A stretch of DNA of 64,000 bases. Origin: Ilyomonas limi (GTDB lineage Bacteria > Bacteroidota > Bacteroidia > Chitinophagales > Chitinophagaceae). A program made the position numbers and the translations under genes. Below, one piece after another: positions 36,750 through 55,818 of this stretch (positions are counted from its first letter, which is position 1; each line of letters begins with the position of its first letter). Under the pieces are notes generated by a model that was not told the origin of the DNA, did not search any database, and saw only the letters and a list, made by a program, of their open reading frames with translations. The stretch is from contig NZ_SZQL01000024.1 in the NCBI RefSeq assembly GCF_005233845.1, positions 1 to 64,000 of the forward strand. Reading direction: 5' to 3'.

Positions 36750-36835
36750 TGCATTCATGTTCTTAATACTGCGGATGTTTATTATTCATTTGGCTATACT
36801 AAACATACTTTTATTACATTGTACTGATTTTGAAA

Positions 36836-38068
36836 TTATCCGCTCAGTTTTTTTGAACGTGCTTCTGCACATTTATTCAGCCATGCTTCGCTAAAAGCAT
36901 CTATTTTTCCGAACCTTTCAATATCAAAATGAGAAAAATCGTAAGGATTTGCGTTGCCTGCAGCCATTTCTGCAAAAGCTAATCCTATACCTCCTGAAAC
37001 AGAAATACCTGCACCTACACAGCCTGTTGCCAGCAATAAATTATGTACTCCCGGGGCTGCCCCCATTGATAAATTATTATCGGGCGTATAGCCTGAAAAA
37101 CCAGCGACATAATATTTCAAACCAACATCATATATTGTTGGAAAGAAGCGGGCAAGCCGGTCAATCACTTCCTGCAAATCATTCATTCCTTTGTCTCCAC
37201 TGAAAGAAAAGTGACTGACATCGGCAGGAATATTTTTGGGTGATACACTGAATGATTTTTTTTCGCGAATGCCAAATAACAAACTTCCGCCTTCAGGTCT
37301 CGCATAAGCCTGTGCATCAGGCAGCAGCACAATAGGTGAATTCAACGGAAAAATGTCAGCTCTTTCTGTTATCCAATACTGGCTTCTGGTAGGCGCCATC
37401 GGTAAATCGACACCCGCTTGCTTTGCAAAAATGGGTGACCATGCGCCTGCAGCAATAATTACCACATCCGCGTAAATTTTTCCTCCTGTTGTATTTACAC
37501 CAACCGCCGTATTATTGTCCATCAATACATCGGTAACTTCCACGCCCTGCCGCAAATCTGCTCCCTGCAATTTTGCGCAGCGTGCAAAAAAAGTTCCCAG
37601 TAAATACGGATCGCAATAGGCTTCTTCCGGCATAAAGCCAATGCATAATGCCTCCTCTGTTTTTAACCACGGCGCTTTTTTGTGTGCTGCTGTATTTGAA
37701 AGGTAGGTAGCCGGTTGATTGAATACTTCAGCAATAGCCATCAACTCTTTCAGATCGCTCACTCTTGGTTCGCTTGCTGCTACATGCATGACACCCACTT
37801 TTTTTATATCGAGCGATTCGCCCAACATTTTTTCCATCTCCGGAATAACACGGTACGTTTCTAAGGAAAGCGGGATGAAATATTTCTTTGCTCTGATCTT
37901 GGTGATCAGTGCAGCAGCCCGGCTGGTAGCGGCATTACACAACTCATTACGCTCCAAAACAACGATCTTTTTTCCGGGATTATTTCTTGAGTAATAATAA
38001 GCAATAGCACAACCAAATATGCCGCCGCCTATCACTACTACATTTGCTTTTTCGGAATTAAACTGCAT
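36836..38068 (-). CDS. FAD-dependent amine oxidoreductase (DAO family), PbfC/PbfD-like
   Basis: A 410-residue flavoprotein of the D-amino-acid/sarcosine-oxidase fold. The FAD-binding motif VVVIGGGIFGCAIAYYYSRN is at residues 10-29 and ADVVIIAAGAWSP at about 203-215, with AGFSGYTPDNN and LATGCVGAGISVSGGIG near the C-terminus. In phosphonate clusters such enzymes (PbfC/PbfD types) oxidatively deaminate 2-aminoethylphosphonate or N-methylated forms to phosphonoacetaldehyde, feeding PhnY. Its place between PhnY/PhnA and PhnW supports that role. Which amine it prefers cannot be told from sequence. Confidence 0.8.
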   Translation of the reverse strand: MQFNSEKANVVVIGGGIFGCAIAYYYSRNNPGKKIVVLERNELCNAATSRAAALITKIRAKKYFIPLSLETYRVIPEMEKMLGESLDIKKVGVMHVAASEPRVSDLKELMAIAEVFNQPATYLSNTAAHKKAPWLKTEEALCIGFMPEEAYCDPYLLGTFFARCAKLQGADLRQGVEVTDVLMDNNTAVGVNTTGGKIYADVVIIAAGAWSPIFAKQAGVDLPMAPTRSQYWITERADIFPLNSPIVLLPDAQAYARPEGGSLLFGIREKKSFSVSPKNIPADVSHFSFSGDKGMNDLQEVIDRLARFFPTIYDVGLKYYVAGFSGYTPDNNLSMGAAPGVHNLLLATGCVGAGISVSGGIGLAFAEMAAGNANPYDFSHFDIERFGKIDAFSEAWLNKCAEARSKKLSG

Positions 38069-38099: not shown

Positions 38100-39182
38100 C
38101 TATTGGGCCATCACCGTCTTCACCGGCTCACCCACGGGATGATTGGCTGTGAAATGAAAACCTAACAAACTGGCGATGGTTTGTGCAAACTGATCCTGGT
38201 AAATTTGTTCTTTTGTTTTTACTTCACCCAGTGCAGGTGTATCGGGTCCTATTGCTATTAAATAAGTTTCGTTGGCATGGGCAATTTTAGAACCATGGCT
38301 TGTCCACTCATCACCATAGCCACGCCCATGATCGGGGAATATTAAAATGGTTGTTTGATCTTTATAAAAATCATCCTGCTGCAAATAATCCCATAGCTGA
38401 GCAATCATTGCGTCCGCTTTATGCGCAGCATCTAAATACATATCATACTTGCTTCCGTGTGCAAACTCATCGTTATCGCCAAAATCAATATACACCACGC
38501 GCGGATGACTTGCCATCAGGTATGCTTTTGTCATTTCATATGTCATCACATCCAATCTTTCACCCTGCCCAAAAACTTCAGGCATGTTATGCTGCATTAA
38601 ATTCAGTTCTTTTTGCAATGGCGTAAGATTGGGACCTTTCACATCTTCGCCATAAATATTAACCAACATGCCATTGCGGTTGCGGTTGATGATTCTTGCA
38701 ACGGCATCCCACGAAGCAAACGTTACTACTTTTCCATTGTAACCATTTTGTTTATTGATAAATTCTAATACATTTTCATTCGGATTGTCAGGATATTCGT
38801 TGGAGTTAACCAACGAATCGTAATAGCCGGTAAATGTTTCACTGCGACCCGGATAAGAAAACCAGTATTTGTTCTTTACGTTCACCAGATTTCCAAGATC
38901 GCGGTTGCCATAAATCTGTCCATGCTTTGCAATTTCGCTCCACACAAAAGGCATTAATTTTTCTCTTCGCTTTGTTGCATCGGCTGCCCAGTATTTTTGC
39001 ATCAGCCAGGAAGAATCCTGTGAGGTGTATTTTTTATTAAACAGTAAAGCAGAATCGGCACCGCCAAAAAGTTCTTTCCAGCGATAACCATCCATAGAAA
39101 GAAGAATGACGTTTTTGGTTTTGTGTTGGGCAAAAATATTGGTGATGAAAAAGAGTGAAATAATGACAAAGACTGTTCTCAT
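38100..39182 (-). CDS. Exported alkaline-phosphatase-superfamily hydrolase
   Basis: A 360-residue exported protein (signal MRTVFVIISLFFITNIFAQ). NVILLSMDGYRW gives the first metal Asp, GRSETFTGYYD the Ser/Thr nucleophile region, DFGDNDEFAH a metal Asp/His pair, FPDHGRG the Asp-His pair and SHGSKIAHANE the last histidine. The superfamily includes phosphodiesterases, phosphonate monoesterases and PhnA itself. The start at 39182 is chosen because it begins a clean signal peptide. Between PhnY and the FAD enzyme, it plausibly frees aminoethylphosphonate from an ester in the periplasm; this is an inference. Confidence 0.78.
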   Translation of the reverse strand: MRTVFVIISLFFITNIFAQHKTKNVILLSMDGYRWKELFGGADSALLFNKKYTSQDSSWLMQKYWAADATKRREKLMPFVWSEIAKHGQIYGNRDLGNLVNVKNKYWFSYPGRSETFTGYYDSLVNSNEYPDNPNENVLEFINKQNGYNGKVVTFASWDAVARIINRNRNGMLVNIYGEDVKGPNLTPLQKELNLMQHNMPEVFGQGERLDVMTYEMTKAYLMASHPRVVYIDFGDNDEFAHGSKYDMYLDAAHKADAMIAQLWDYLQQDDFYKDQTTILIFPDHGRGYGDEWTSHGSKIAHANETYLIAIGPDTPALGEVKTKEQIYQDQFAQTIASLLGFHFTANHPVGEPVKTVMAQ

Positions 39183-39229
39183 TAAAATGGATTTTATTAT
39201 TGCTATTAATGAATAAATACATTCTTCAG

Positions 39230-39290
39230 CCACGAAGACACAAAAACTCAGAGAAAATTGTGTACACTTCGTGTCTTTGTAGCTTTGTGG
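39230..39290. repeat. Imperfect inverted repeat with CACGAAGACAC-type ends
   Basis: CCACGAAGACACAAA (39230-39244) faces TTCGTGTCTTTGTAGCTTTGTGG (up to 39290). Its halves resemble widespread CCACGAAG/CACAAAG intergenic repeats seen in this phylum. It occupies most of the gap between phnY and the exported hydrolase gene and could fold as a hairpin. Confidence 0.6.
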
Positions 39291-39303: not shown

Positions 39304-40785
39304 TTACCACGGCATCGAAAATGTTTTTATAAAACTGAAACATTTCATTGCTTCGATCACGCCTTCTTTAATTCCTAAACCCGAATCTTTAATGCCACCA
39401 AAAGGAGAATTTTCAATACGATAGCCCGGCACTTCATTGATGTTTACCGTACCCACTTTTAATTCTTTCACAAAGCGTATGGCGTGCTGCATATTATTGG
39501 TAACCACGCCCGCAGATAAACCGTAGGATGTTGAATTAGACAATGCAATGGCATCATCAATATCTGTAAAGCCGAGAATAGGCGCTAACGGACCAAATGA
39601 TTCGCACATCACCATTTGCGCATCTCTAGGCACATCTGCAATAACTGTTGGTTCCAACAGTGCGCCTTCGCGCTTGCCGCCCAATAAAACTTTTGCGCCC
39701 GCCGCCACTGCTTTTTTAGTTACATCTTCCAAATAAATAGCTGCCGGTTCATCTATTACCGTACCCACTTTTGTTTCAGAATCGGCTGGGTCGCCACAGG
39801 TATATTCTTTTGCTTTTTCAACCAGGCACTTTGTAAATGCTGCTTTGATATTTTCGTGCACCAATATTCTTTTTACCGCAGTGCAGCGCTGACCGGAGTT
39901 TCTGAAAGCGCCTTCTGCTGCCAGTGTTACGGCGAGGTTCATATCTGCATCTTCTAAAATAATTAAAGGATCATTACCACCTAATTCGAGAATTACTTTT
40001 TTATAGCCTGCTGTTTTTGCAATATGCTTTCCTACCGCAACGCTGCCTGTAAAAGAAACAAGGTCTATGCGCTCATCTTTTACCAGTTGTTCTGCCACTT
40101 CGCTGGTAGGACCAAGTAATACGCTTAACATATAATGCGGCAACCCTGCTTCGTATAAAATTTCTGTAAGGCGAATGGCAGTAAGTGGTGTTTTTTCAGA
40201 AGGTTTTAAGATCACCGGCGTTCCAGACGCAATAGCCGGAGCAATTTTATGCACCACCTGGTTGAGCGGATGATTAAAGGGCGTGATAGCAACCGCTACA
40301 TTCAATGGTTCTCTGAATGTGAAGATTTTTCTTGCTTTACCATTGGGCGAAATATCGCAGGAAAAAATTTGCCCGTCGTCTTTTAAACACTCTATGGCTG
40401 CAAACATGAGCACATCATTTGCACGTCCCATTTCATAACGCGCCTCGCGAATTGCCAGTCCGGATTCGGCACTGATAAGCTGTGCCATTTCTTCTTTGCG
40501 CTGCATCAACAAGTGGCGCGTTTTATCCAACACTGAATAGCGTTCGTAACGGTTCAATTTTTTTCCGCCTTTCAATGCAGCTTCAATGGCTTCATTCGTT
40601 TCCTTTGCGCCTGCCAATGCCACTGTTCCTACTATTCTGTTATCGTAAGGGCTACGCACCTGGAGCACATTATCCGATGCTATTGGCTTGCCTGCCACAT
40701 AGCAGGACAAATTCAAAACATGGGTGCCGTTTGCTACTGCAACTTCTTCACTGTTTGCTGTTGCCGAAATAATTGTATTACTCAT
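39304..40785 (-). CDS. phnY: Phosphonoacetaldehyde dehydrogenase
   Basis: A 493-residue NAD(P)-dependent aldehyde dehydrogenase. GNDP and the catalytic Glu267 (VILELGG), the nucleophile Cys301 (FRNSGQRCTAVKR) and the Rossmann SFTGSVAVG are all present. PhnY oxidises phosphonoacetaldehyde to phosphonoacetate. The assignment rests on family similarity plus position: PhnA, which uses the product, is 46 bases upstream, and PhnW, which makes the substrate, is downstream on the same strand. Other aldehyde dehydrogenase activities cannot be excluded from sequence alone. Confidence 0.85.
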   Translation of the reverse strand: MSNTIISATANSEEVAVANGTHVLNLSCYVAGKPIASDNVLQVRSPYDNRIVGTVALAGAKETNEAIEAALKGGKKLNRYERYSVLDKTRHLLMQRKEEMAQLISAESGLAIREARYEMGRANDVLMFAAIECLKDDGQIFSCDISPNGKARKIFTFREPLNVAVAITPFNHPLNQVVHKIAPAIASGTPVILKPSEKTPLTAIRLTEILYEAGLPHYMLSVLLGPTSEVAEQLVKDERIDLVSFTGSVAVGKHIAKTAGYKKVILELGGNDPLIILEDADMNLAVTLAAEGAFRNSGQRCTAVKRILVHENIKAAFTKCLVEKAKEYTCGDPADSETKVGTVIDEPAAIYLEDVTKKAVAAGAKVLLGGKREGALLEPTVIADVPRDAQMVMCESFGPLAPILGFTDIDDAIALSNSTSYGLSAGVVTNNMQHAIRFVKELKVGTVNINEVPGYRIENSPFGGIKDSGLGIKEGVIEAMKCFSFIKTFSMPW

Positions 40786-40831: not shown

Positions 40832-42085
40832 TCACACATTGGCACCTTCATTCGTTCCGTTGATAGTAAAATCGAAAATGTTGAAGTTGCGTGGATCACC
40901 GGCAGCCTTCTTTTTATAGGTTTCATTCAGCGGATGAGAAATGATCATCGGCACCATTTCTTCGTATCTGCCGCCGTGAGAACGAAGCGTGCCATCCAAT
41001 GCAGAGAGATCATGGTATTGCGGGCTTCGTCCTACTACCACATCTCTTGCAGACAGTACTACCAAATCGCCGGTTCTGTCTTCCGGTTGTTCCAATACAC
41101 GAACAGCAGTGGCTTTATCATATACTTCTGTAATGCCGGGCTGCATCGCTAACCAGTTTTTTACCTCATTAATAATTGATTTATCAGCCACATGCACTAC
41201 CACATAAGAACCCAAAGCGCCATGGTGTTTTACATAAGGATCGGTGATAGGGCAAATAACCCGGAAATGGTCACCAAATTGTTCTTGGAGCATATCTTCT
41301 ACAAACAACACATTGGGCGAACCATCTTCCTTTACTTTAGCATTCATCCCGTGGTCGGCAGTAGCGCCAACGATAGCACCAAGTGCTAACAGTTTTCCAA
41401 CTTCTTTATCCATTGCTTCATAAAAATCCAATGATTCCTTTGTTTCCGGCGCATACGTGTGCTGCATATAATCGGTGAGTGATAAATAGAGAAAATCGGC
41501 TAAACCTTTTTCAATCAAAGCAACACCGGCACGTAGTACAAAAAGGCTTGCATCGGCGCTGTAAATAGCCGGTGTTTGATAGCCCACAATGGCTTCTACA
41601 TCATCAATTCCATGTGTTTCTTTCTTCGCCTGGTTAGCTTTTTCTGCCGAAATGGCAATGCCTTTCATTTTATAAGAAAGAATATCACGCAGTTTTTCTT
41701 TTGCAGTAACAACCGCTACTTTTCTTCCTGCATCAGCGGCGGCAGCAAGAATGGTTTCTGCACGCAGGTATTCAGACGAATTCATCATTACTTCTTTATC
41801 TTTTTCCGTATCATAAAAAAAGTTGCCACTGATGCCATGCACTGCCGGAGATACCCCAGTTACTATAGACGAATTATTTACATTGGTGAAAGAAGGCAAT
41901 GCGCCACGCACCATACCGCGATAGCCTTGTTTGCTCATGCACTTTACATTTGGCATTTTATCGAATGCCATGCTTATATCAAGGTATTCATCGGCAGAGC
42001 CATCAATACAAATAACAACGATGGGGCTTTCTACAGGATGATATGTTGCACCGTTTACAGAGAATGAATTGGTAACTACTGTCAT
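40832..42085 (-). CDS. phnA: Phosphonoacetate hydrolase
   Basis: A 417-residue zinc enzyme of the alkaline-phosphatase superfamily that splits the C-P bond of phosphonoacetate to acetate and phosphate. D28 (VICIDGSADEYL) and T67 (GALPSFTNVNNSSIVTG) match the metal Asp and nucleophile Thr of characterised PhnA, with SLTDYMQHTY, ATADHGMN and RSHGGRYEE supplying the remaining metal ligands. No signal peptide is present, so it acts in the cytoplasm. It is adjacent to phnY, as in known PhnW-PhnY-PhnA pathways. Paralogues with PhnX are not seen here. Confidence 0.92.
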   Translation of the reverse strand: MTVVTNSFSVNGATYHPVESPIVVICIDGSADEYLDISMAFDKMPNVKCMSKQGYRGMVRGALPSFTNVNNSSIVTGVSPAVHGISGNFFYDTEKDKEVMMNSSEYLRAETILAAAADAGRKVAVVTAKEKLRDILSYKMKGIAISAEKANQAKKETHGIDDVEAIVGYQTPAIYSADASLFVLRAGVALIEKGLADFLYLSLTDYMQHTYAPETKESLDFYEAMDKEVGKLLALGAIVGATADHGMNAKVKEDGSPNVLFVEDMLQEQFGDHFRVICPITDPYVKHHGALGSYVVVHVADKSIINEVKNWLAMQPGITEVYDKATAVRVLEQPEDRTGDLVVLSARDVVVGRSPQYHDLSALDGTLRSHGGRYEEMVPMIISHPLNETYKKKAAGDPRNFNIFDFTINGTNEGANV

Positions 42086-42158: not shown

Positions 42159-42737
42159 TTACGCTTTGCTATCTAAATATTCATTTATAGCATTGATAAA
42201 ATAATGCAGCGGAAGCGTTTTTGCGTTGCGGTCTTTCGCTCCTTCATCCCATAATCTTACTCTGATGATGTCTTTGAAAAAAGGATGTTTTTCAAAGACG
42301 GCGGCTTCCTCTTTACTCATAGCACCGCCCTGCCATTCAAGTGTTTGTAAGCTTGCAAAAGATAATTTTTCTTTATAGCCAGGCTGTGCTGTTACTAAAT
42401 ATCTTTTTGCATCCACATGTTTTTCTACTACTGCGCAAATCCGTTCTGAAAAGCCATTTGTACGTAAGTACTCCGCGCCTATTCCTTCGTGATTCACTAC
42501 ACCATACTTACCCATTGCTTCTGTTTTCTGCCGATGGCGCAGTAAATGCCCAATATCATGTAAAAAAGCACCAAGCACTAATTCTGTATCTGCACCCTCG
42601 TTTATTGCCTGCATGGCACATTGTATCATGTGCGATGTTTGCGATACCGGCTCTCCATCATAATCTTCATCACCATATTTTTCAAATAAAGAAAGAAGTT
42701 CATCAGAAACGGATCCGGTATTAATCTGCTGATTCAT
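42159..42737 (-). CDS. PhnZ-like HD-domain di-iron oxygenase
   Basis: A 192-residue HD protein of the phosphonate-degradation branch. The six PhnZ iron ligands are kept with nearly the same spacing: H36, H60, D61, H83, H107 and D164. Y26 and E29 match the two PhnZ residues that contact the substrate. The family pattern TLEWQGGAMSKEEAAVFEKHP is also present. PhnZ cleaves 2-amino-1-hydroxyethylphosphonate to glycine and phosphate using O2. No hydroxylase of the PhnY* type is in this operon; a PhyH-family gene at 7415-8242 is the only candidate in the window. It precedes phnA. Confidence 0.85.
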   Translation of the reverse strand: MNQQINTGSVSDELLSLFEKYGDEDYDGEPVSQTSHMIQCAMQAINEGADTELVLGAFLHDIGHLLRHRQKTEAMGKYGVVNHEGIGAEYLRTNGFSERICAVVEKHVDAKRYLVTAQPGYKEKLSFASLQTLEWQGGAMSKEEAAVFEKHPFFKDIIRVRLWDEGAKDRNAKTLPLHYFINAINEYLDSKA

Positions 42738-42869: not shown

Positions 42870-44474
42870 TTATTTAATCAACCACATTTTTGCATTTATA
42901 TCGTCGTTGCCACCATATTGACTTTGCAAAGCAGCCTGAAGATTGGCATTGTTGGCTGTTATTTCATTGGTTGGATATTGCCATCTTAACGGTATAACTC
43001 CACCATTACCTGTTCCGGGTCCGGCATCAAAAGCAGGCACTCCTGTTCTGCGCCATTGATAATATGCCTGATAACCTGAATTGCGGGCATACGCTAGATA
43101 TTTTTGCGTAAGTATTTGCTGTAAACCTGTGCTATTATTGCCGGCATATTTAACTGCCGGTTGATTGAAATAATCGGCAAATTTAAATTGGACAGGATAA
43201 GGTATTTCTGTACCGGCAGCGTTCATTAAAACAACAGTATTACTTCCATCAACAATACCATAAAACGCAAATTGTGCCTCTGTGCCTTTTTCATACCAGC
43301 TTTCTGCATCACCCGTTATCCAGCCTCTGTTAATAGCCTCTGCAATGCAAAAACATATTTCGGGATAACTTAAAATATAGGTAGGCTCTGCAGTATAACC
43401 CGAATAAAAATGATTACGGTTATATAAAGACAATTTTGAATTTGCCAAACCTGAATTAATAAGCGCATTCATAGTACTTAAATCCATGCCTGATGGCGCA
43501 CCTACATACGATGCATAAGAGGTATCGCTATGTCCTAAGCCACGCGCAGGTTCGCCTAACACCATGCAACGCAAATCATGTAATTGGCCTAAAGTTGTTT
43601 CTAATGTTGCCGCAAGGTTTAAACGAAGCTGGTTATTACCATAGTTAGTTATATTGTCCGGATAATAATTGTAGGTGCTGTTATATACATATTGTAAATT
43701 ATCTGCACTGCTTGAAAAAATTGGATATGTAGCCGGATCATTTATAATAGTAGCAAATTGTTGCGGTATATTTAAATCAGCATTGTCATCGGCTCTTTTG
43801 CTCAATTCAATCAACACACGCAATTTATAACTGTTTACTACTTTTTGCCATTCAACTAAAGCATCAAGCCCATTTCCTCCATTTACCGGATTATTAATTC
43901 TTTCTTTATAATAAAAATCTCCGGAGAACTCGAGAAATCCATTCTTTATCAATCCGCCTAAAATGATATTGGCTGAATCAAGCCATAATAAAGATTGCTT
44001 AAATATATCTTTCTGTGTATCATACTTGGGCTGCGTGTTATTTAAACCCTGTAAGGCTTCTGTCATTGGCAGATCACCTACTTTTTCTGTCATGTTCACA
44101 AAGAAAAAGGCACGAAAGAAAAGACCCAATGCGTGATAAGGATTATTATCAGAACCTGCAAGACGCCTGGCTTCTGCTTCCATTTGCAAAGTATTATTAA
44201 GGTCGCCATAATTGAGTGACGCACTTCCGGTCCAATACTCATTGTTTCCGTAATAAACATAGTTAGAGCAGATAAACTGGCACGCCTTATCCGCATCACC
44301 GCCCGGAAAAACAACAAGGTCGCTTAAAATTGATTTTAATACAATACCAGGCGGCACTTTGCCGGGCGATGGCTGGTTTAAATTTTCCGAATAAGCTTCA
44401 AACTTTTTCGTGCAGCCCGCAGCAACAGCTGCTATTACCAGAATAAGTAATAAAGAAGACTTTATAGATTTCAT
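42870..44474 (-). CDS. SusD/RagB family outer-membrane lipoprotein of the phosphonate locus
   Basis: A 534-residue lipoprotein with signal ending AVAAGCTKKFEAYSEN (lipobox AAGC). It has the SusD-like helical N-terminus (HALGLFFRAFFFVNMTEKVGD) and a C-terminal region with YPEICFCIAEAINRGWI, typical of the SusD-like_2 branch. It lies 33 bases after a SusC on the same strand and upstream of the phosphonate enzymes. It should bind the substrate at the surface for import by SusC. The ligand is inferred to be a phosphonate or phosphonate conjugate purely from the operon. Confidence 0.87.
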   Translation of the reverse strand: MKSIKSSLLLILVIAAVAAGCTKKFEAYSENLNQPSPGKVPPGIVLKSILSDLVVFPGGDADKACQFICSNYVYYGNNEYWTGSASLNYGDLNNTLQMEAEARRLAGSDNNPYHALGLFFRAFFFVNMTEKVGDLPMTEALQGLNNTQPKYDTQKDIFKQSLLWLDSANIILGGLIKNGFLEFSGDFYYKERINNPVNGGNGLDALVEWQKVVNSYKLRVLIELSKRADDNADLNIPQQFATIINDPATYPIFSSSADNLQYVYNSTYNYYPDNITNYGNNQLRLNLAATLETTLGQLHDLRCMVLGEPARGLGHSDTSYASYVGAPSGMDLSTMNALINSGLANSKLSLYNRNHFYSGYTAEPTYILSYPEICFCIAEAINRGWITGDAESWYEKGTEAQFAFYGIVDGSNTVVLMNAAGTEIPYPVQFKFADYFNQPAVKYAGNNSTGLQQILTQKYLAYARNSGYQAYYQWRRTGVPAFDAGPGTGNGGVIPLRWQYPTNEITANNANLQAALQSQYGGNDDINAKMWLIK

Positions 44475-44507
44475 AATAATTTTTTTGTTGTGTTTTGCAC
44501 TACAATT

Positions 44508-47500
44508 TTAGAATACTACATTGATGTTTATACCGTAGCTTCTGGTAGTTGGTGTTTGCAATGTTTGCTCTCTTGATATGCCGTTAAACCGGCTTCTGCC
44601 GGGGAACTGATCAACATCAATATCATGAAACTGACTATGGAAAAAGTATAAAAGATTTCTGCCAACAAGCGAAACATCAACTTTTGATATAAAGCTTTTT
44701 TCAAGCAATTTATAAGGAAGTGTATAGGTTAATACTACTTCGCGCAGCTTAGCATACGTTTTACTGGTGCTTGTATGTTCTGCATCGTTATAATAGCTGC
44801 TCACAAAATCCTGAATCCAGTGTGTTGCTACCGTATTTGGGGTGTAAGAAAGTGCCTTGCCGTTTGTGATTACGCCTGTAACAGGATCGTACACAATGTT
44901 TCCTGCACCGCCAACAACCTGTACCATATCGCCGCTTAATATTGGTTTACCATTAACTATAGCACCGTTATAATCCGGATCGGCCCAATGCTGTGATTCA
45001 TATAAGCGCGCTTCGCCGATGATACCTGTAACTGTACTTTCGCCTCTGCCACCTTCAATCAATTTGCGATATACATAATCACCAATTGTACCGCCAACCA
45101 TTCCATCAAACTGAAACGACAAACTGAAAGACTTGTAAGAAAATTTATTGTTTATACCCCATGAAAAATCAGGATCTGCATGACCAAATTTTTGCGCTTT
45201 CGGTAAGTAAATGGGAAAACCAGATTCATCTACTATTACTTTACCATCCGGCGTTTTTGCTTCAATGTCAGCATATAATTCGTCAACCCTGTCGCCTATT
45301 TTGTAAGGATAACCGGTTCCGTTATCTACTTCTTTAGCACCACCGGCAAAAGCAGTATATACTTCTTTGTAGGTTGACCAGTTGATTAATACATTCCACG
45401 CAAAATTTTTATGCTGAATTGCAGTGCCTGTTAGTGATAGTTCTGCTCCGGTTCTTTTTGTTGTTGCACCGTTTGTTGTGAAATAACTCAAACCTGTTGT
45501 TTCTGAAATATATTGATTTGATATCTGTGGGCCATCTTTATATTCGAAATAAGTTCCGCTTAAGCCCAACCGGTTTTTAAGAAATCTTATATCAAGCCCA
45601 AATTCATAACTGCTGCGCGAAGACGGCTTGATATTTTTATCAATAACATAGTTTGGAGCTACAGCACCGGTTTGATTATTGTATGTATAATTTGTATAGT
45701 AGAAAGGAGTTGAAAGGCCATAAGTAGGACCATCATAAGGTGTATAATAATTATTTCCATAACCCACCGGGCTGCTCGCGCCAAGTGATTGAAACGATGC
45801 GCCAATATAAGGAGTAGTGCCGCCATCCTTAACAGTTGCCAAACCTCCACGTACTTTTAAAAAGGAAATCGCACCCGGCATTTTAACGTAATCTGATATA
45901 ACAGAGCTTAACGAAACCGAAGGATAGAAAAATGCATTATTTCCATTGGGTAATGCTGATGTTTTATCAACACGGCCTGTTGTTGATACAGTAAAGTAAT
46001 TTTTATAAGAAATGTCTGCTGAATAATAAGCACTAAGCATCAACAGGTTTGAACCGTAAGAAAAGGAACGCACGGGTAAATAGGAATTAGCAAATGTGTA
46101 CACTTCCGGAACGATCAACTGGTTAGTGCTGTTATAGCTTGAAGTAAACTTCATATTACGGGCAGAACCACCTGCATTGGCACTGATAGCAATACCAGTA
46201 TTACCAAGGTTCTCTTTATTATAACTTAATAAAATTTCAGTATTATTTTCCCAAAGATCGCGGCGGTCTTCACGATAATTACCATGATTATGCTCATCTC
46301 CATAAGGGTGTGCCGACCAGGGCTCCTTTTCAGTTCTTAACAGGTTATAGGTAGTAATGTTTGAGCGAGCCATTAAGTTAAGGTTCTTGTTGAACCTGTA
46401 AGTAAACGAAGCCCAACCATATAAATCATTTTTATAATGGCCTCTTAACCATTCATAACTCATAAAATAAGGATTTTGGTAACGCTTGTATTCCACAAAC
46501 ATCGACTGGGTGCCTTCCTTACCCGGCTGCCATATTGCTTTAATTTTCGGATCGAGCACATTCCAGTCTGCGCCTGTCCAAATATCAACATCATATATTA
46601 TACTGTTGGGGCCGTAAGCGACATCAGGAATATTTGGAGTGAACTGTCGGTTATAATTTAAATTGGCTTCAATCCTAAATTTGTCAGACACATCATAACT
46701 TTCAATCAGATTGAAATTAACCGAGTTTAAACTTGTATTTGGCGTGATGCCGGTTTGATATGATTGTGATGCTGAAACACGCAGATTTGAACGATCTGAA
46801 ACAGCTGAAAAGCTTACATTATTTTTTGTAAGGAAGCCTGCCTGTAAAAAGTTTCGCAGATTATCTTTTCCTCTTGAAATCCAGGGTGTAGGCTTAATAT
46901 GGCTTTGATGCGTAACACCGCCCAACGTATAATCATAATATTCTGTTGGGTTATATTCACCATCAAACTGAGGCAACATTAAACCAATATCAAGTTGCGG
47001 ACCCCAAACGTCATAATCTTCATCATTGATACCATCGACAGAATTACCGGAACTGTTGTAATCACCAAAAGCATACTGTTGTTTTTCGCCACCGCCGTAC
47101 ATGTTCTGTACTTTAGGAATGGCAATAAAACCCTTATTTATTTGATTACTGCTGTTTAGCTCAACAGTATAACCTTTTTTATTTCTACTTCCGCGTTTTG
47201 TAGTAATTAGAATAGCACCATTAATTCCCCGGCTGCCGTATAAAGCTGCTGCAGTTGGGCCTTTTAAAACTGTAAAAGTTTCAATATCGTCAGGACTGAT
47301 ATTCCATGTATCTGAATTGATTGGAATACCATCAACCACATAAAAATTTAACGGAGAACCTCGAAGCAGTACTGTTGGTGATGCCAGCAGTTCCTGGTTA
47401 ATACCTACATTCAATCCTGCTACTTTTCCTACTAAACTATTTATTGGGTTTGACTCCCGCGCCTTTACCAAATCAGCTCCTTTAACTTCCTGAATCGAAT

Positions 47501-47870
47501 ATCCAATACGCTTCACTTCTTTTTTAATGCCTAATGCCGTTACCAGCACATCAGATAGCTGCCCTTCTTCTCTTTTAAGTTTGATGGAAAGCGGTTGATT
47601 ATTTTCGATGGGCACTTCCTGGGCTGCAAACCCTACAAAAGAGATTACCAGCACATCTCCTTTTTTTGCATTAATAGAAAATTTTCCGTAAGCATCGGTG
47701 CTGGTTCCTCTGCCGGAATTTTTAACTACTACCGAAGCGCCTGCTACAGCAGCATTGTCTTCGGCGGTTACAGTACCATTGATCATTGATTGAGCGAACG
47801 ACGGCAAGGCTGCGGTTATGATAACAAAGAATAATAGTAGCCTTTTGCTCATTAGAAATCTGTGTTTCAT
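44508..47870 (-). CDS. SusC/RagA TonB-dependent outer-membrane transporter of the phosphonate locus
   Basis: A 1120-residue outer-membrane protein. After a signal peptide ending AALPSFAQ comes a carboxypeptidase-regulatory-like domain (about 28-100), then the plug (SDVLVTALGIKKEVKRIGYS, VVDGIPINSDTWNISPDDIE, LKGPTAAALYGSRGINGAIL) and the barrel ending GININVVF. No STN domain is present, so it is not FecR-signalling; control more likely comes from the XRE-cupin regulator 244 bases upstream. SusD follows. Its presence at the head of a phosphonate operon is unusual. Confidence 0.9.
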   Translation of the reverse strand: MKHRFLMSKRLLLFFVIITAALPSFAQSMINGTVTAEDNAAVAGASVVVKNSGRGTSTDAYGKFSINAKKGDVLVISFVGFAAQEVPIENNQPLSIKLKREEGQLSDVLVTALGIKKEVKRIGYSIQEVKGADLVKARESNPINSLVGKVAGLNVGINQELLASPTVLLRGSPLNFYVVDGIPINSDTWNISPDDIETFTVLKGPTAAALYGSRGINGAILITTKRGSRNKKGYTVELNSSNQINKGFIAIPKVQNMYGGGEKQQYAFGDYNSSGNSVDGINDEDYDVWGPQLDIGLMLPQFDGEYNPTEYYDYTLGGVTHQSHIKPTPWISRGKDNLRNFLQAGFLTKNNVSFSAVSDRSNLRVSASQSYQTGITPNTSLNSVNFNLIESYDVSDKFRIEANLNYNRQFTPNIPDVAYGPNSIIYDVDIWTGADWNVLDPKIKAIWQPGKEGTQSMFVEYKRYQNPYFMSYEWLRGHYKNDLYGWASFTYRFNKNLNLMARSNITTYNLLRTEKEPWSAHPYGDEHNHGNYREDRRDLWENNTEILLSYNKENLGNTGIAISANAGGSARNMKFTSSYNSTNQLIVPEVYTFANSYLPVRSFSYGSNLLMLSAYYSADISYKNYFTVSTTGRVDKTSALPNGNNAFFYPSVSLSSVISDYVKMPGAISFLKVRGGLATVKDGGTTPYIGASFQSLGASSPVGYGNNYYTPYDGPTYGLSTPFYYTNYTYNNQTGAVAPNYVIDKNIKPSSRSSYEFGLDIRFLKNRLGLSGTYFEYKDGPQISNQYISETTGLSYFTTNGATTKRTGAELSLTGTAIQHKNFAWNVLINWSTYKEVYTAFAGGAKEVDNGTGYPYKIGDRVDELYADIEAKTPDGKVIVDESGFPIYLPKAQKFGHADPDFSWGINNKFSYKSFSLSFQFDGMVGGTIGDYVYRKLIEGGRGESTVTGIIGEARLYESQHWADPDYNGAIVNGKPILSGDMVQVVGGAGNIVYDPVTGVITNGKALSYTPNTVATHWIQDFVSSYYNDAEHTSTSKTYAKLREVVLTYTLPYKLLEKSFISKVDVSLVGRNLLYFFHSQFHDIDVDQFPGRSRFNGISREQTLQTPTTRSYGININVVF

Positions 47871-47901
47871 AGACAGTAGTTATTGTTTATAATGTATATA
47901 A

Positions 47902-48035
47902 ATACTAAACTTATTACACGAAGCATTTATTAAACTTAACTTACAGTTAGATAAGTATTTACTGCCAAAAGTAGAAGGCTGCTGTTAAGTGAATGTTACG
48001 TGAAAATAAAGTTATTGTAAATATATACTAAACTT
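47902..48035 (-). promoter_or_regulatory. Candidate operator repeats upstream of susC
   Basis: The gap between the XRE-cupin gene and susC contains two exact copies of AAGTTTAGTAT on the minus strand (48025-48035 and 47902-47912), both followed by AT-rich (W)TATA-like sequence, 123 bases apart, and a looser third copy (AAGTTTAATAA near 47930). TACTTTTG at 47966-47973 fits the Bacteroidota -7 element but no clear -33 element is visible. Binding by the adjacent regulator is an inference. Confidence 0.45.
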
Positions 48036-48114
48036 TATTTACTATTTGCCACCCCAAATCATTTCACACAAACGTTTGCGTAATGGCACAGATGAGAAAA
48101 GAAGAAAGCTGTTG

Positions 48115-48690
48115 TTATTTGCTGAGAAAAAAATAAACAACCAGCATTAGGGCATCTCCATCACCGATATTTTTAGGGTTATGCAACTGGCGGGCATCAA
48201 AGAAAATGGAATCACCTGCTTCAAGCACATGTTTTTCTTTACCAATGGAATATTCAACCGTACCGCTTATGAGATATTTGTATTCATAAGCTTCGGTCTT
48301 TACCATCGCTCTTCTTGCATTTTTTTGTAACCGCAACATCACAATATCTACGTGATGATCGTCTATGCTTGTAGATAGTATGCGCTGATATAAAAAACCT
48401 TTGGCATTCTCTTTTTCAAACGGCTGGTAATTCGAGTTTTTTTTAAAGATGACATTGGAAGGTTTTTTTTCAAAATCAATCGTATCAAAAAATCCATTCA
48501 AATCTAATTTTAGTTCTCTGATAATATTCATCAGTACAGGCAGAGAAGGTATGGTTCTGCTGTTTTCAATTTGAGAGATCAACCCTTTGGTTACGCCTAC
48601 TTTGTCGGCCAGTTCTTGCAGCGTAACATTTTTTTGAGTACGTACTTCTTTTAGCCTGTTGCTGATTTGTATAATAATATCTTCCTGCAT
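48115..48690 (-). CDS. XRE-family helix-turn-helix regulator with C-terminal cupin domain
   Basis: A 191-residue regulator. The N-terminal helix-turn-helix (about 8-65, TLQELADKVGVTKGLISQIE) binds DNA, and the cupin domain (about 110-185, KYLISGTVEYSIG and EAGDSIFFDARQLHNPKN) should sense a small molecule. The class often controls catabolic genes for amino-phosphonates, amines or polyamines. It is the first gene of the phosphonate block on the minus strand, 244 bases before susC, and candidate operator repeats lie in that gap. Whether it represses or activates cannot be told. Confidence 0.87.
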   Translation of the reverse strand: MQEDIIIQISNRLKEVRTQKNVTLQELADKVGVTKGLISQIENSRTIPSLPVLMNIIRELKLDLNGFFDTIDFEKKPSNVIFKKNSNYQPFEKENAKGFLYQRILSTSIDDHHVDIVMLRLQKNARRAMVKTEAYEYKYLISGTVEYSIGKEKHVLEAGDSIFFDARQLHNPKNIGDGDALMLVVYFFLSK

Positions 48691-49132: not shown

Positions 49133-50764
49133 CTACTCAATCATGATGACTACTTTACCTGCCTTCAACCTATTTACCTGTAAAGCATAATCACCATTGC
49201 CCAATTCCCTTAATGTATAGCTCTCACTCCCTGCTTTTGACCCCGGCGAAATCTTTTTACCATCTAGCGTTATTACCATCGGTTTAAAAGAAAGACGCAC
49301 GTAATCTATACCTTTTTTTTGCAACGCAGTGTACATCACCTTTTTATCACTGTACCGGATATCCTTCAATACGTTCTCTGAATAAAGAATATGGTTTTCA
49401 TGCGCAGGAGCCCATTCGGGGATGGCTGCAAAAACATGATAAAACATTCTGGGTCCTTCCCCATAACAATCGGACCACCACGAATGCACATCTTTACTCA
49501 CCGGGCTTTCAAAAGCTTTACCAACTGAATCGTTGCAATAAGTAACCCAGTTCAAGGAACGGAAGGCTTTTTCTTTATAGGCCTCATCACCCGAAACCGA
49601 ATACCAGGTGGCGCACTGCGCCGCGTATCTTGCCGTTTGGTAATCCATCTTGGGCATAAAATCGACCTGCTCACTTACTAAATTGGCTCCCCACATAGTG
49701 GAAGGCTCACCTGGCGCAGATTTGGCAATAAAATGATCTTCTGTCCACTTTATCAAACCCGGAAGCGTTGTTTTCCAGCCGGTATCAAAATCGGTGAAAT
49801 CAGCAATAAATAAAGCTGCGTTACTTGCACTCATATTACTCAGATTGCCTGTGCCTTGCGTAAGATTATCCGTGTGCCCATCCACCCATAAACCATTTTG
49901 TATAGGGTACTTCAACAACCAGGTACGTGCTGTTGCTACCGTTGTTTTATAGGCGCCCACATCCCCCGTATTATCCGCTATCAGCATTTTGAGCAGCCTG
50001 ATACAACCAAACCAGTTGGTGCCATAATCTGATACCACTCTCCCGGTATGCATATTCACGACGTATGGCCAGGGAGATTTGGTGGCATTTCCCGGACTTA
50101 TTTTCTTAGCCAACACATTGGCAACATTAATTGCGGCTTCTTTATATTTTGTATCTCCGTAAAAGAGGTATGCGCGGTAAAAGGTTGCCCCTATATCGCC
50201 GGCATGATCTACCTGCACATCATCAGTAGAGAATCTTTTAGCAGTAGTAAAACCGCGGAACTCTGTGGCACCTGCATCAGCACCTGTCTGCGGAAAATGG
50301 GGCCAGCTATATGTGGAAGGTGTCAATCCGTGTTCAAGACAATAATCGATCAACCCCTTTGTAATACTTAACGGCTTCGTATCGCCTGTATAGGCATAAT
50401 ACGAAAGCGCTGATTCAAACCAGTTTGGAATTTTTTCACCTACATCATTCATCCACATATCGGGTAAAAGAACATTGGCCGAGTCGATAAAAGCACAATA
50501 AAAATAGTACTGCGGATATAAGGACCTGGGGGCAGGTCCGGGGCTCATGGGAACTTTAGTCTCCACAAAATTCCAGCGGAGCCGAAGAAAATGATCATAC
50601 GCGTTTGAAGCATTATTTTTCCACGGGAGAATCTTTTTACTGCTGTCCAGCAGAACGGTATGCCCGCAAAGTGTACTATTGGTATAGTTTTGCGCGTACA
50701 GGTGCGGCCCCAACACACAGGCTAACAAAGTAAAAATGATGGTATGTTTAATCTTTACACGCAT
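49133..50764 (-). CDS. Exported alpha/alpha-barrel protein, putative glycan-active enzyme
   Basis: A 543-residue exported protein. The ATG at 50764 (MRVKIKHTIIFTLLACVLG, signal to about residue 25) is chosen over 50830, which overlaps the upstream gene region. The body is rich in amphipathic helices with YYAYTGDTKPL, GDIGATFYRAYLFYGDTKYK and TWYSVSGDEAYKEKA, the TPR-like helical pairs of (alpha/alpha)6-barrel enzymes such as uronate hydrolases, lyases and epimerases; a beta-rich C-terminal domain follows. It is the last gene of a sugar-acid-type operon. The activity is not identified. Confidence 0.55.
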   Translation of the reverse strand: MRVKIKHTIIFTLLACVLGPHLYAQNYTNSTLCGHTVLLDSSKKILPWKNNASNAYDHFLRLRWNFVETKVPMSPGPAPRSLYPQYYFYCAFIDSANVLLPDMWMNDVGEKIPNWFESALSYYAYTGDTKPLSITKGLIDYCLEHGLTPSTYSWPHFPQTGADAGATEFRGFTTAKRFSTDDVQVDHAGDIGATFYRAYLFYGDTKYKEAAINVANVLAKKISPGNATKSPWPYVVNMHTGRVVSDYGTNWFGCIRLLKMLIADNTGDVGAYKTTVATARTWLLKYPIQNGLWVDGHTDNLTQGTGNLSNMSASNAALFIADFTDFDTGWKTTLPGLIKWTEDHFIAKSAPGEPSTMWGANLVSEQVDFMPKMDYQTARYAAQCATWYSVSGDEAYKEKAFRSLNWVTYCNDSVGKAFESPVSKDVHSWWSDCYGEGPRMFYHVFAAIPEWAPAHENHILYSENVLKDIRYSDKKVMYTALQKKGIDYVRLSFKPMVITLDGKKISPGSKAGSESYTLRELGNGDYALQVNRLKAGKVVIMIE

Positions 50765-50789
50765 GGTGGTACATTGATAGGTGAAAATG

Positions 50790-51701
50790 TTAATGCATAA
50801 GAAAAGAATGAACGAGTGGCAGCAAAGCAAGATCTATAGATGCTTCATCTTCCGAGACCATTGCTTCTGCTAAAAGCCAGTACTCTGAATGCTCCACTAT
50901 CTCTCCAGGTTTTAATGATGACAAAGGACCAAGTGTTTCCATTTCAAGATAATTGCCATTGATGTATATCTCATTATTACAATTGTAATCAGGATATGCT
51001 GCGGAAGGATCATAATTCATCTTTTTTATCAGCACCTCGTTATTCAAGCTGTAAACCATCCAGCCTTGCTTATTGGTAACACCTATTTTTTGTTCTGAAG
51101 TGTATAATGAATCCTGCTTTGCCCGAATATATTTTTCACCCCAGTTCCAGCGTGGGTCGTTCATCTTTGTAAAGTGCCATATCGCTAAAGCGCGGGCGGG
51201 CAGTAAGTAATCGTCCCCTTCCCCAAAAGGCTCCTGTGGTATGATAGCAGTTCCACCAGGAGAAAGCATGGTAATTGCCCATGGAGCTAATTCTACATTC
51301 CAATTATTTTTATTCGTTAGCTTGTGTACCACTTTTAATTCGTTCGCATCCTTAGCGATGGTGATCTCCATTTCTTTTACAATACCGGTGATGCTTTCTT
51401 TAGCCTGTATCAGCCTGATGCTACTATCCTGTACAACATATTCTACCTTGTCGTTGTCGGGGTTATAACTGAATGGAATGGCTTCGGGGGCAAGCCATAA
51501 ACGGTGCCCCCCGTATATGCGCCAATCATTGCCGCCGGTAGTACCCCGATGCGCCGGTACGAGGTACAAAAAATTCTGCCCGCCGGTAAATCCGAATTTT
51601 ACGATGCGCGGGCCAACATCGGTAGTCACGATCAATTCTACCTCATCGTTGTACAGCCTGATGCAATTGGGCCAGCCTTCATATTTTATTCTTTCATACA
51701 T
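50790..51701 (-). CDS. DUF4380-like protein (aldose-epimerase-type fold)
   Basis: A 303-residue cytoplasmic protein. The N-terminal VTTDVGPRIVKFGFTGGQNF and YGGHRLWLAPEA segments match the DUF4380 family, whose fold resembles galactose mutarotase. No signal peptide is seen. It overlaps neither neighbour and is ten bases from the M24 peptidase gene. In this operon it may handle a sugar anomer, but the family has no settled function. Confidence 0.7.
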   Translation of the reverse strand: MYERIKYEGWPNCIRLYNDEVELIVTTDVGPRIVKFGFTGGQNFLYLVPAHRGTTGGNDWRIYGGHRLWLAPEAIPFSYNPDNDKVEYVVQDSSIRLIQAKESITGIVKEMEITIAKDANELKVVHKLTNKNNWNVELAPWAITMLSPGGTAIIPQEPFGEGDDYLLPARALAIWHFTKMNDPRWNWGEKYIRAKQDSLYTSEQKIGVTNKQGWMVYSLNNEVLIKKMNYDPSAAYPDYNCNNEIYINGNYLEMETLGPLSSLKPGEIVEHSEYWLLAEAMVSEDEASIDLALLPLVHSFLMH

Positions 51702-51711
51702 GCGCTTATAG

Positions 51712-52845
51712 TTAAATACCTTGTTGAAAACAGTGATTAAATTTTGTCAATACTTCGCAGCCGTCATTTGTTACGGCAACCAGGTGTTCCAATCTAATTC
51801 CATAATCTGCGGAATACACCGCGGGCTCCAGCGCGATCACCATTCCCGGTTGCAGGGCCATGGTGTTATATGGCGTAATGCGCGGTTCTTCATGATATAT
51901 AACGCCTACCCCATGGCCACCATGATGCCCAAAGTTTCCTTTTGCCTGCAGATGTTGGCGCATTGCAAAGTCCACTTCCCTGGCCTGAACGCCGGGCTGT
52001 ATAGAATGAATGCCGATTTCCAAAGCTTCTTTAACCAAGTTAAAAACACTGCGTTGTTCCATAGTTGGCGTACCCATTACAATGGTGCTGCAAGAGTCGC
52101 CCCAATAGCCATTCAGACAAGGTGTAAAGTCGGTGAGAATCAAGTCGCCATCATTTATTATTTTGCTTGTTGGCAGTCCGCCCCCTGTAGCGGTTGCGGT
52201 TCCGCTTACAAAGTCTGCCATTAAAGGCACCCTCGTGCCTACAGACTCTTCGATTTCGCGGCGTACGAGGTTAAATAACTCCAGTTCACTCATCCCCGTT
52301 TTGGCAAGCCGTAATACTGCCGCCTGGCCAATATCACTTAAGTTAGCGGCTCTCCTGATAGATGCAATTTCATCTTCGTCTTTAATGATTCTAAGATGGG
52401 CAATTTCGGCACTAATGTCTACAAGTTCAATGGCAGGATATTGAGCAGTTAAAAAGAAGGCAAGGCTTGCTGGAAGCGCATTTAATTCAACGCCAAGCCT
52501 GCCACTTTTTATTCCAGCTTGTTTGAAAGCTTCGCCAAGCTGCAACAGGAATTGCGTAGTGTGATCGATCGGCTTTTGGTACACATAACTTTCGTAGGTC
52601 TTTACTGAAATGGATGGATCAATAAACGCCAATTGCTGCGTTTCATTATCAGCCAGCACAAGACTTGCCTGTTGTTCCACACCTACTACAAGTGCGGCGG
52701 GTAATAATTGAAATGGCGACAGACCATGTTCAAAGTAAAAAAAATAGCCACTCAGATATTTAAGCGAGGCGAGCGAAGTAATCAAAAATGCATCTACTTT
52801 TTTAGCGTTTTTTATTGCTGTCAATTTTTGAATCCTGTTTTTCAA
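51712..52845 (-). CDS. M24 family metallopeptidase (Xaa-Pro aminopeptidase/creatinase type)
   Basis: A 377-residue protein with the N-terminal creatinase-like domain and a C-terminal pita-bread domain. The five metal ligands are present: Asp in LILTDFTP, Asp in GYWGDSCS, His in HHGGHGVGV, Glu in YHEEPRI and Glu in IRLEHLVAV. TTG at 52845 is used because no in-frame ATG precedes the N-terminal domain. Its place among sugar-acid genes is odd; M24 relatives also hydrolyse amidino and amide bonds in small molecules, so it may trim an amide-linked conjugate instead of a peptide. Confidence 0.82.
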   Translation of the reverse strand: MKNRIQKLTAIKNAKKVDAFLITSLASLKYLSGYFFYFEHGLSPFQLLPAALVVGVEQQASLVLADNETQQLAFIDPSISVKTYESYVYQKPIDHTTQFLLQLGEAFKQAGIKSGRLGVELNALPASLAFFLTAQYPAIELVDISAEIAHLRIIKDEDEIASIRRAANLSDIGQAAVLRLAKTGMSELELFNLVRREIEESVGTRVPLMADFVSGTATATGGGLPTSKIINDGDLILTDFTPCLNGYWGDSCSTIVMGTPTMEQRSVFNLVKEALEIGIHSIQPGVQAREVDFAMRQHLQAKGNFGHHGGHGVGVIYHEEPRITPYNTMALQPGMVIALEPAVYSADYGIRLEHLVAVTNDGCEVLTKFNHCFQQGI

Positions 52846-52889
52846 TTTACTTTTTTTAGAAAATATACTGGTAAATGAAAGTCCGTAGA

Positions 52890-54008
52890 TTACATAACGA
52901 CACCATATTTCCTGATCACTTCTTCATTCAGTTCTATACCCAACCCCGGTGTTTGCGGCACACTGACATAACCGTCTTTTAATTCAAACGGCGTTTTCAA
53001 AATGCCTTTTCTTATCGGGGATTCTGTTACAGAAAATTCCAGGACCGGTGCATTGGGTATAGCAGCAATAAGATGTATAGATGCTGCCACCAAAATGCCG
53101 GTCTTAAAGGCATGTGGAACACATAAAATATTCTTATCCGCTGCCATTGTAGCAATCTTTTTTGCTTCGGTCAATCCACCGCACCGAGACATATCCGGCT
53201 GAATAACATCGACATGCGTCTCATTGATCAACCGTGCAAAAGCAAGCCTGCCGCTCTCTTCCTCCCCGGTCGCTATACGCAGGGTTGTGGCTTCGGTTAG
53301 CTTTTTGTACCCTATATAGTCCTCTGCAGGTAAAGCTTCCTCCAGCCAATAAATATTCAGGTCTTCCAATGCCTTCGCCACGTAGATAGCTTCTTTTAAA
53401 CGATAGCGTTTACCGATGTCGATCATAATGTCCATCTTATCACCGGCTGCTTTACGTGCTGCTTTGATAAGGTTAATATCAAAATGAATATCATACCCCA
53501 ATGGACCCCATCCAAATTTCAATGCGGTATAACCCAGAGCGGCATGTTTCTCAACCATCCTTTTCACCTCATCCGCATTCTCCGGCATCAGCGCACTGGC
53601 ATAAGCCCTTACTTTATCTGCATAACTTCCACCTAATAATTTGTGTACAGGTTTTTTAACTGCTTTACCCATGATATCCCATATAGCCATGTCGATACCA
53701 CTCATGACGTGCATCACCGGACCAAACCGGCCGTAGTAATACGTTTTCGCCCACATATTATTCCATATTTGCTCGTAGTCAAAAGGATCGCTGCCTACCA
53801 CTACTTCCCTTAAACCATAACAGGTGCCATGAGACATGTAGGCGTCAACCACAGCCTTTCCAACAAAAGGAGCTGTATCTACCTCACCATATCCGGTAAT
53901 GCCTTCATCGGTCTCTACAACAATAACTAAATCGTCCTGGGTACCATCTGCCGCATCTGAAATATGCGGGAGACGAAGCACTGTAGCGGTTACGTTGGTA
54001 ATCTTCAT
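52890..54008 (-). CDS. Enolase superfamily (mandelate racemase-type) sugar acid dehydratase
   Basis: A 372-residue enzyme. The N-terminal capping domain (EGITGYGEV) is followed by a barrel with K164 (ALKFGWGP) as base, metal ligands D197 (MIDIG), E223 (WLEEA) and E249 (ATGEEE), and H299 (CVPHAFKTG) as the second catalytic residue. This pattern fits acid-sugar dehydratases. Its start overlaps the transporter stop by four bases (ATGA), indicating tight co-translation. With the SDR and RraA-like genes it outlines a sugar-acid pathway whose substrate is not known. Confidence 0.85.
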   Translation of the reverse strand: MKITNVTATVLRLPHISDAADGTQDDLVIVVETDEGITGYGEVDTAPFVGKAVVDAYMSHGTCYGLREVVVGSDPFDYEQIWNNMWAKTYYYGRFGPVMHVMSGIDMAIWDIMGKAVKKPVHKLLGGSYADKVRAYASALMPENADEVKRMVEKHAALGYTALKFGWGPLGYDIHFDINLIKAARKAAGDKMDIMIDIGKRYRLKEAIYVAKALEDLNIYWLEEALPAEDYIGYKKLTEATTLRIATGEEESGRLAFARLINETHVDVIQPDMSRCGGLTEAKKIATMAADKNILCVPHAFKTGILVAASIHLIAAIPNAPVLEFSVTESPIRKGILKTPFELKDGYVSVPQTPGLGIELNEEVIRKYGVVM

Positions 54009-55015: not shown

Positions 55016-55047
55016 ACAAGTGCAGTTATTGATTTGGTGTAAAAACC

Positions 55048-55818
55048 TTATTTAGGAGGCAGGCCAGAACCAAAGCCTCCATCCACGACGTAGGCAGAAC
55101 CAGTAACAAATGAAGCGTCGTCGCTCGCCAGAAAAACAGCAACTTTTGCTACTTCTTCCGCTTTACCTATACGCCACAAGGCATGTAACTTGCCGGCTTC
55201 TGCACGTGCCCGCGCAGGATCAGGCTGACTTTGAAAATATCCTTCGGCGAGCCCGGTATCGATGTAACCGGGGCAAATACAATTCACGCGAACGCCCTCA
55301 TGCCCATGATCTATAGCCATAGCTTTTGTAAGGCCAATAATAGCCGCTTTGGTAGCGCAGTAACCGGCACAGGAAGGTTCTACAAAATATGCGTTCACGG
55401 AAGACAAACTCACAATGGAACCTTTAGTAGTTTTCAGGTGGGGCAGAAACAGTTTTGAACAAAGAAAAATGCCACCCACGTTGATAGACATTTGTGTATT
55501 CCATTCCTCGAGGCTGGTGTCCTCGACGGTCTTATTAATCTGGATAGCAGCACTATTGATCAGTGCATTCGCCTTGCCGTATTGCTGAAGTGTTGTTTGC
55601 ACGAGCGATGCGACGCTGACAGGATCTGCCACATCTGCGGTACAAGCAATAGCATTTCCTCCGGCTGCCTGTATTTGTTTTACTGTTTCTGCTGCGCCTT
55701 CTTCATTTATGTCTGCAACAACAACGTTAGCGCCTTCTTCAGCACATTTTACAGCACAGGCTCTTCCTATACCCGAGCCAGCGCCGGTAATTACCACACA
55801 ACGGTTTTGTAATTTCAT
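55048..55818 (-). CDS. Short-chain dehydrogenase/reductase
   Basis: A 256-residue NAD(P)-dependent enzyme. TGAGSGIGRACA at about residues 11-22 is the cofactor motif, INSAA near 88 takes the place of NNAG, and the catalytic Ser-Tyr-Lys are in SIVSLSSVNAYF and GYCATKAA. The ATG at 55818 is preferred to a TTG two codons earlier. It follows the RraA-like gene by ten bases. A role in oxidising a sugar-acid intermediate is inferred from the operon. Confidence 0.87.
   Translation of the reverse strand: MKLQNRCVVITGAGSGIGRACAVKCAEEGANVVVADINEEGAAETVKQIQAAGGNAIACTADVADPVSVASLVQTTLQQYGKANALINSAAIQINKTVEDTSLEEWNTQMSINVGGIFLCSKLFLPHLKTTKGSIVSLSSVNAYFVEPSCAGYCATKAAIIGLTKAMAIDHGHEGVRVNCICPGYIDTGLAEGYFQSQPDPARARAEAGKLHALWRIGKAEEVAKVAVFLASDDASFVTGSAYVVDGGFGSGLPPK

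Follow-up and report, generated by a model that had tools for sequence, protein, structure and literature searches.

Introduction

Phosphonate uptake is little known in the Bacteroidota. The closest described counterparts are the PusCD complexes of Flavobacterium, SusC/SusD-like (SusCD) complexes that are induced by phosphate starvation and encoded beside phosphonate-degrading enzymes (Lidbury et al. 2020, PMC8115612). The present work deals with a SusCD gene pair placed ahead of phosphonate enzymes in Ilyomonas limi (assembly GCF_005233845.1, contig NZ_SZQL01000024.1, positions 1 to 64,000 of the forward strand; this whole stretch of 64,000 nucleotides is called the window). We consider it fairly probable that this pair forms the outer-membrane step of a system for phosphonate acquisition and breakdown, probably for esterified aminoethylphosphonates. 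As in the PusCD loci, a SusCD is found together with organic-phosphorus or phosphonate enzymes and a predicted inner-membrane organic-phosphorus transporter, and the proposed role lies likewise in organic-phosphorus uptake. Moreover, Flavobacterium loci belonging to the clade described below (L048-L050) share the PusCD layout. The differences are threefold. PusCD is defined by induction upon phosphate depletion, whereas the window SusCD is known here from genes alone; PusD is polyphyletic, and the main text of PMC8115612 singles out no phosphonate-specific clade; and the window operon has the full PhnW, dehydrogenase and PhnA route together with a cupin regulator.

Other known systems resemble the locus in part. 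Classic Sus-type polysaccharide utilisation loci likewise feature a TonB-dependent SusC and a SusD lipoprotein encoded in adjacent, co-directional genes, but the window SusCD has no conserved carbohydrate-active enzyme (CAZyme) as a neighbour, and the catabolic genes beside it are those of phosphonate breakdown. BT2261-2264 and RagAB, which we take to be non-glycan SusCDs serving peptides, are related insofar as, among solved SusCs, BT2264 comes closest in sequence, its complex presumably having carried peptides; however, the window locus shows no sign of peptidases, its neighbours being phosphonate enzymes. The AepX, AepP and AepSTU systems are similar in that aminoethylphosphonate uptake feeds PhnW-type catabolism (PMC8316502), but they are not presented as outer-membrane SusCDs, and the text of that paper mentions neither TonB nor the outer membrane. 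In the open-licence literature, no report was found that ties a SusD to aminoethylphosphonate.

The original prediction held that a phosphonate ligand would broaden the range of compounds known for this transporter class. An extension to organophosphonates is plausible, but its novelty is reduced by the PusCDs already reported beside phosphonate enzymes (PMC8115612) and by the existence of non-glycan SusCDs. Given PusCD, the idea of a phosphonate-linked SusCD is thus no novelty in principle. The present analysis contributes a defined SusD clade that crosses family boundaries, with a same-genome control, a modular swapping of the enzymes, and an OPA-like reading of the membrane protein DUF5690. 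If the proposed system is real, the SusCD class would extend from sugars and peptides to organophosphonates, and each of the two membranes would have candidate genes (SusCD and DUF5690) that can be approached in cultured relatives such as Segetibacter koreensis (L016). Furthermore, the clade would mark organisms drawing phosphorus from phosphonolipids and similar material.

Organization of the locus

The locus consists of ten co-directional genes on the minus strand, to which all gene coordinates from the regulator through DUF5690 refer. It begins with a regulator gene encoding an XRE-family helix-turn-helix domain and a cupin domain (48115-48690; PF01381, PF07883), which lies 244 bases upstream of the SusC gene (44508-47870). 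The SusD gene (42870-44474) follows, and then come the phosphonate genes through DUF5690. As originally predicted, the pair stands between the regulator and the first enzyme gene; the gaps of 33 bases after SusC and 132 bases after SusD exactly match the open reading frame coordinates. Homologues of the regulator occur in 10 of 55 loci holding relatives of this SusD, and the protein may control the operon.

Conserved linkage of SusCD to phosphonate genes

GTDB genomes were scanned with the SusD sequence alone, which yielded 56 loci at 26-81% identity. Neighbouring genes were scored by profile models derived from recurring gene clusters, and the main unnamed clusters were named by their NCBIfam representatives (TIGR03364 HpnW, TIGR03351 PhnX-like, PbfA, and HpnZ). 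In 40 of the loci the sequence extends 5 kb or more downstream of the SusD gene; one or more phosphonate genes are present in 33 of these and two or more in 31. When DUF5690 and phosphatase-type genes are counted too, a phosphorus gene of any kind is present in 36. None of 18 control regions, taken around further SusD genes in this genome, held a phosphonate gene. The comparison of 33/40 with 0/18 gives a Fisher p of about 1e-9, a value to be read with the related loci not being independent. Additionally, in an unbiased draw within the order, 12 of 149 genomes carry this SusD, and 8 of these 12 have both the PhnZ-type oxygenase gene (Phn-HD) and DUF5690 at a distance of no more than about 10 kb. 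The adjacency of the SusCD and phosphonate genes therefore exceeds chance, and the link is real at the gene-neighbourhood level.

Chance adjacency was rejected by means of the same-genome control. The related idea of the SusCD as a passive neighbour serving some unrelated nutrient could draw on the abundance of such pairs (55 SusC genes in this genome) and on the existence of phosphonate operons lacking a SusCD. Nevertheless, the linkage recurs in several families with differing gene orders and enzyme sets and is missing from the control regions, which makes a coincidental neighbour, chance or passive, highly improbable.

The enzyme set varies considerably among the loci. PhnW, dehydrogenase and PhnA occur in the window and in L004, L016, L028 and L031, while most other loci have PhnX-like together with HpnW, often accompanied by Phn-HD; PbfA is present in four and HpnZ in three. 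A constant transporter with changing enzymes is expected if the ligand of the transporter is a phosphonate.

In a tree of 70 SusDs, the window SusD falls in a clade of 58 rows with a Shimodaira-Hasegawa-like approximate likelihood ratio test (SH-aLRT) value of 97, and most of its assessable rows are phosphonate-linked. Within the seven-row subclade that includes the window SusD, all seven are so linked. The clade spans Chitinophagaceae, Cytophagaceae, Sphingobacteriaceae and Flavobacteriaceae. The predicted link between SusCD and phosphonates is thus supported as a conserved neighbourhood in a SusD clade crossing family boundaries, and at that level only. Outside the main clade, on a long branch, another SusCD (L112, 7937-9500) adjoins Phn-HD, HpnW, DUF5690 and a regulator, which suggests that a SusCD may have been recruited to phosphonate genes a second time, independently.

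Several observations weigh against a dedicated phosphonate importer. In four clade members (L012, L015, L017 and L021), the SusCD adjoins a gene for a glycerophosphodiester phosphodiesterase and the region in reach lacks phosphonate genes; in two further loci (L040 and L045) this region lacks phosphorus genes of any kind. Conversely, some phosphonate clusters lack a SusCD: a complete cluster of hydrolase, Phn-HD, PhnX-like, DUF5690 and HpnW genes (L113), PhnW-PbfA-PhnA clusters (L127, L128 and L130), and a cluster of regulator, PhnA, dehydrogenase, DUF5690 and PhnW genes (L131). Since such operons stand without an adjacent SusCD, phosphonate use does not require one. PhnA is rare, occurring in 8 of 395 Bacteroidota genomes, with this SusCD beside it in only two (the window genome and genome G088). 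As for the cargo, the whole basis for regarding it as a conjugate is the secreted hydrolase described below and general knowledge of SusCD cargo size.

The four diesterase-linked members also favour an alternative in which the SusCD imports organic phosphorus generally, such as glycerophosphodiesters and other phosphate esters, phosphonates being one cargo and the phosphonate enzymes one downstream module. A beta-propeller/phosphoesterase protein in 24 of 55 loci points the same way, as do the phosphate-depletion-induced PusCDs of Flavobacterium, which are linked to phosphatases and diesterases (PMC8115612). However, phosphonate genes (33 of 40) are far commoner in the clade than diesterase-only loci, and the subclade of the window SusD is wholly phosphonate-linked. 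We therefore hold this broader role to be rather unlikely, with a minor but real chance of being correct, and prefer the reading of the SusCD as a phosphonate importer.

Properties of the SusC and SusD proteins

Both parts of a SusCD importer are present, namely a SusC-type barrel with a carboxypeptidase-like domain and plug, and an adjacent lipoprotein of SusD fold. SusC is a TonB-dependent outer-membrane transporter type that scores 445 bits against TIGR04056 (cut-off 368) and also matches TIGR04057, PF13715 (CarboxypepD_reg-like) and PF07715 (Plug). The family-model scan gave no match to an STN domain in this protein, as had been predicted; the emphasis placed on this absence does not hold up, given that the genome has 55 SusC-type matches above cut-off and five STN matches, one of those below cut-off. 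A missing STN was thus rejected as a meaningful feature. It is the norm among the SusCs of this genome (about 50 of 55) and hence says nothing on the ligand.

The predicted surface lipoprotein SusD (lipobox Cys21), the putative lid and ligand-binding partner, belongs to the SusD-like_2 branch as expected (PF12771, 191 bits). An AlphaFold2 model built with 47 relatives reached a predicted local distance difference test (pLDDT) score of 83 and a predicted template modelling (pTM) score of 0.86. It has the SusD fold, the best match being 3mx3_A (Z 38.9, root-mean-square deviation 2.7, 447 aligned). The closest structures are BF0972, BVU_1254 and BF3025 (Z about 39), entries with no ligand given in their titles, and chitin- and glycan-binding SusDs come next in rank. 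Some residues are kept within the clade and not in paralogues.

These structural relatives bear on another alternative, in which SusD recognises the sugar of a glycan or glycolipid bearing 2-aminoethylphosphonate (AEP) and the phosphonate enzymes consume this decoration. Oligosaccharides are common SusCD cargo, solved SusDs sharing this fold include binders of chitin and other glycans, and a sugar-type utilisation locus adjoins in the window (49133-64467). On the other hand, no glycoside hydrolase, lyase or other CAZyme is a conserved neighbour of the SusCD relatives, where only a gene resembling glycoside hydrolase family 1 recurs (3 loci), and the neighbouring sugar locus was not seen to recur beside them. 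In the window itself, the operon encodes phosphonate enzymes, and the co-located CAZymes typical of polysaccharide utilisation are missing from it. A decorated glycan is accordingly judged improbable, and a phosphonate ester as cargo is preferred.

Phosphonate enzymes and secreted hydrolase

All three enzymes of the PhnW route score above their curated cut-offs: the 2-aminoethylphosphonate:pyruvate transaminase PhnW (35403-36521; TIGR02326, 496 bits), phosphonoacetaldehyde dehydrogenase (39304-40785; TIGR03250, 666 bits) and the phosphonoacetate hydrolase PhnA (40832-42085; TIGR02335, 492 bits; structure 1ei6, E 3.5e-110). The first enzyme gene after SusD encodes Phn-HD, an HD-domain phosphonate oxygenase of the PhnZ type (42159-42737). 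Its score against TIGR03276 is slightly under the cut-off (206 versus 214.6 bits); its nearest solved relative is PhnZ (4mlm, E 3e-46), and the His and Asp positions of the HD motif are retained in the alignment. Nine inspected Phn-HD (TIGR03276) genes from more distant families (L104-L111 and L114) are solitary, having no other marker phosphonate gene nearby. Phn-HD alone is consequently unsafe as a phosphonate marker, and members of the family may also serve functions other than phosphonate breakdown.

A flavin adenine dinucleotide (FAD)-dependent amine oxidase of the DAO family (36836-38068; PF01266, 191 bits) reaches only 54 bits against TIGR03364, far under the cut-off, and is a possible N-methyl-AEP oxidase. 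Such clusters are known to encode FAD enzymes that oxidise N-methyl-AEP, among them a TIGR03364 member (PMC10590968).

The remaining enzyme is a hydrolase of the sulfatase/phosphodiesterase superfamily (38100-39233; PF00884, 29 bits), whose true start is probably an internal Met near 39180. It has a signal peptide and no lipobox, and is thus predicted to be secreted. Its metal-site residues, those of the alkaline-phosphatase superfamily (D, D..AH, DHG, H), are invariant in 20 homologues, and no related solved structure was found by sequence. The gene is present in 14 of 55 loci, commonly straight after SusD. This hydrolase points to an ester as the imported compound. SusCDs are importers of the large-cargo type, and an imported ester would explain why one is used.

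DUF5690 as a candidate inner-membrane carrier

The last gene of the operon encodes the DUF5690 membrane protein (33974-35329; PF18943, 515 bits), which occurs in 40 of the 55 loci. Its model (pLDDT 88) shows the fold of the major facilitator superfamily (MFS). Human G6PT is the top Foldseek match and GlpT is also listed, with Z values tied with those of other MFS proteins. Sequence similarity is faint: the family profile aligns with GlpT, UhpT and UhpC at an hhalign E of 5e-4 and a probability of 32%, it found no match against PDB sequences, and the PgtP model is matched by 1 of 19 members (8e-7). In an alignment of these 19 proteins with GlpT, UhpT and UhpC, the GlpT positions Y38, Y42, R45, K46, Y76, K80, R269 and Y393 are kept in all 19. 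R45, R269 and K80, which we take to be substrate-site residues of GlpT, are invariant throughout the alignment, whereas H165 is not conserved in DUF5690. Owing to the retained GlpT positions and the MFS fold, DUF5690 is probably an OPA-type (GlpT/UhpT-like) inner-membrane carrier of organophosphates or organophosphonates. In the PhnW-PbfA-PhnA clusters of distant Bacteroidota (L127, L128 and L130), the place of DUF5690 is apparently filled by a different MFS protein whose first helix resembles that of GlpT (YAGYYLCR / YAGLYFCRKNF).

Proposed route of uptake and breakdown

From the gene content we infer the following route, including its order and direction. At the cell surface, SusD would bind a compound that contains a phosphonate, and SusC would move this compound into the periplasm with TonB energy. 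The cargo is most likely a conjugate rather than free aminoethylphosphonate, for example a glycerol or sugar ester of AEP or its N-methyl form, such as a phosphonolipid head group. The ester would be cut by the secreted hydrolase, and the freed aminophosphonate would be carried across the inner membrane by DUF5690. Subsequently, PhnW or the FAD oxidase would yield phosphonoacetaldehyde, the dehydrogenase would convert it to phosphonoacetate, and PhnA would release acetate and phosphate. The PhnZ-type oxygenase may deal with 1-hydroxylated variants. For the more specific claim, that the SusCD clade is a dedicated phosphonate-conjugate importer paired with the DUF5690 carrier and thus completes a two-membrane organophosphonate uptake system in Bacteroidota, we see roughly even chances.

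Candidate operator and neighbouring loci

The region between the regulator and SusC genes (47871-48114, minus strand) is a candidate operator or promoter. It holds two copies of the 9-mer GTTTAGTAT (47902-47910 and 48025-48033), of which the window has 4 copies versus 0.72 expected; the others lie upstream of PhnW (36796-36804) and at 15844-15852. The 9-mer is also found near phosphonate genes in L004, L028, L031, L039, L041, L054, L113 and L131. It is present in 6 of 47 upstream regions of relatives and is not among the commonest 9-mers there. A role as a conserved operator bound by the regulator is possible, if weakly supported.

Three further regions of the window were noted. The first, 49133-64000, is a second co-directional locus with a SusC gene that crosses the window end (to 64467 on the contig), a SusD gene (59919-61496), an enolase-superfamily enzyme, an EamA transporter and a short-chain dehydrogenase-like gene; it looks like a sugar-acid utilisation locus. 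The second, 21522-26762, encodes an STN-bearing SusC, which accounts for one of just five STN matches in the genome; a 572-aa open reading frame follows it in the SusD position. Finally, two DUF4097 proteins adjoin a zinc-finger (zf-HC2)/HEAT-repeat protein at 30532-33007, which is probably an anti-sigma-type unit.
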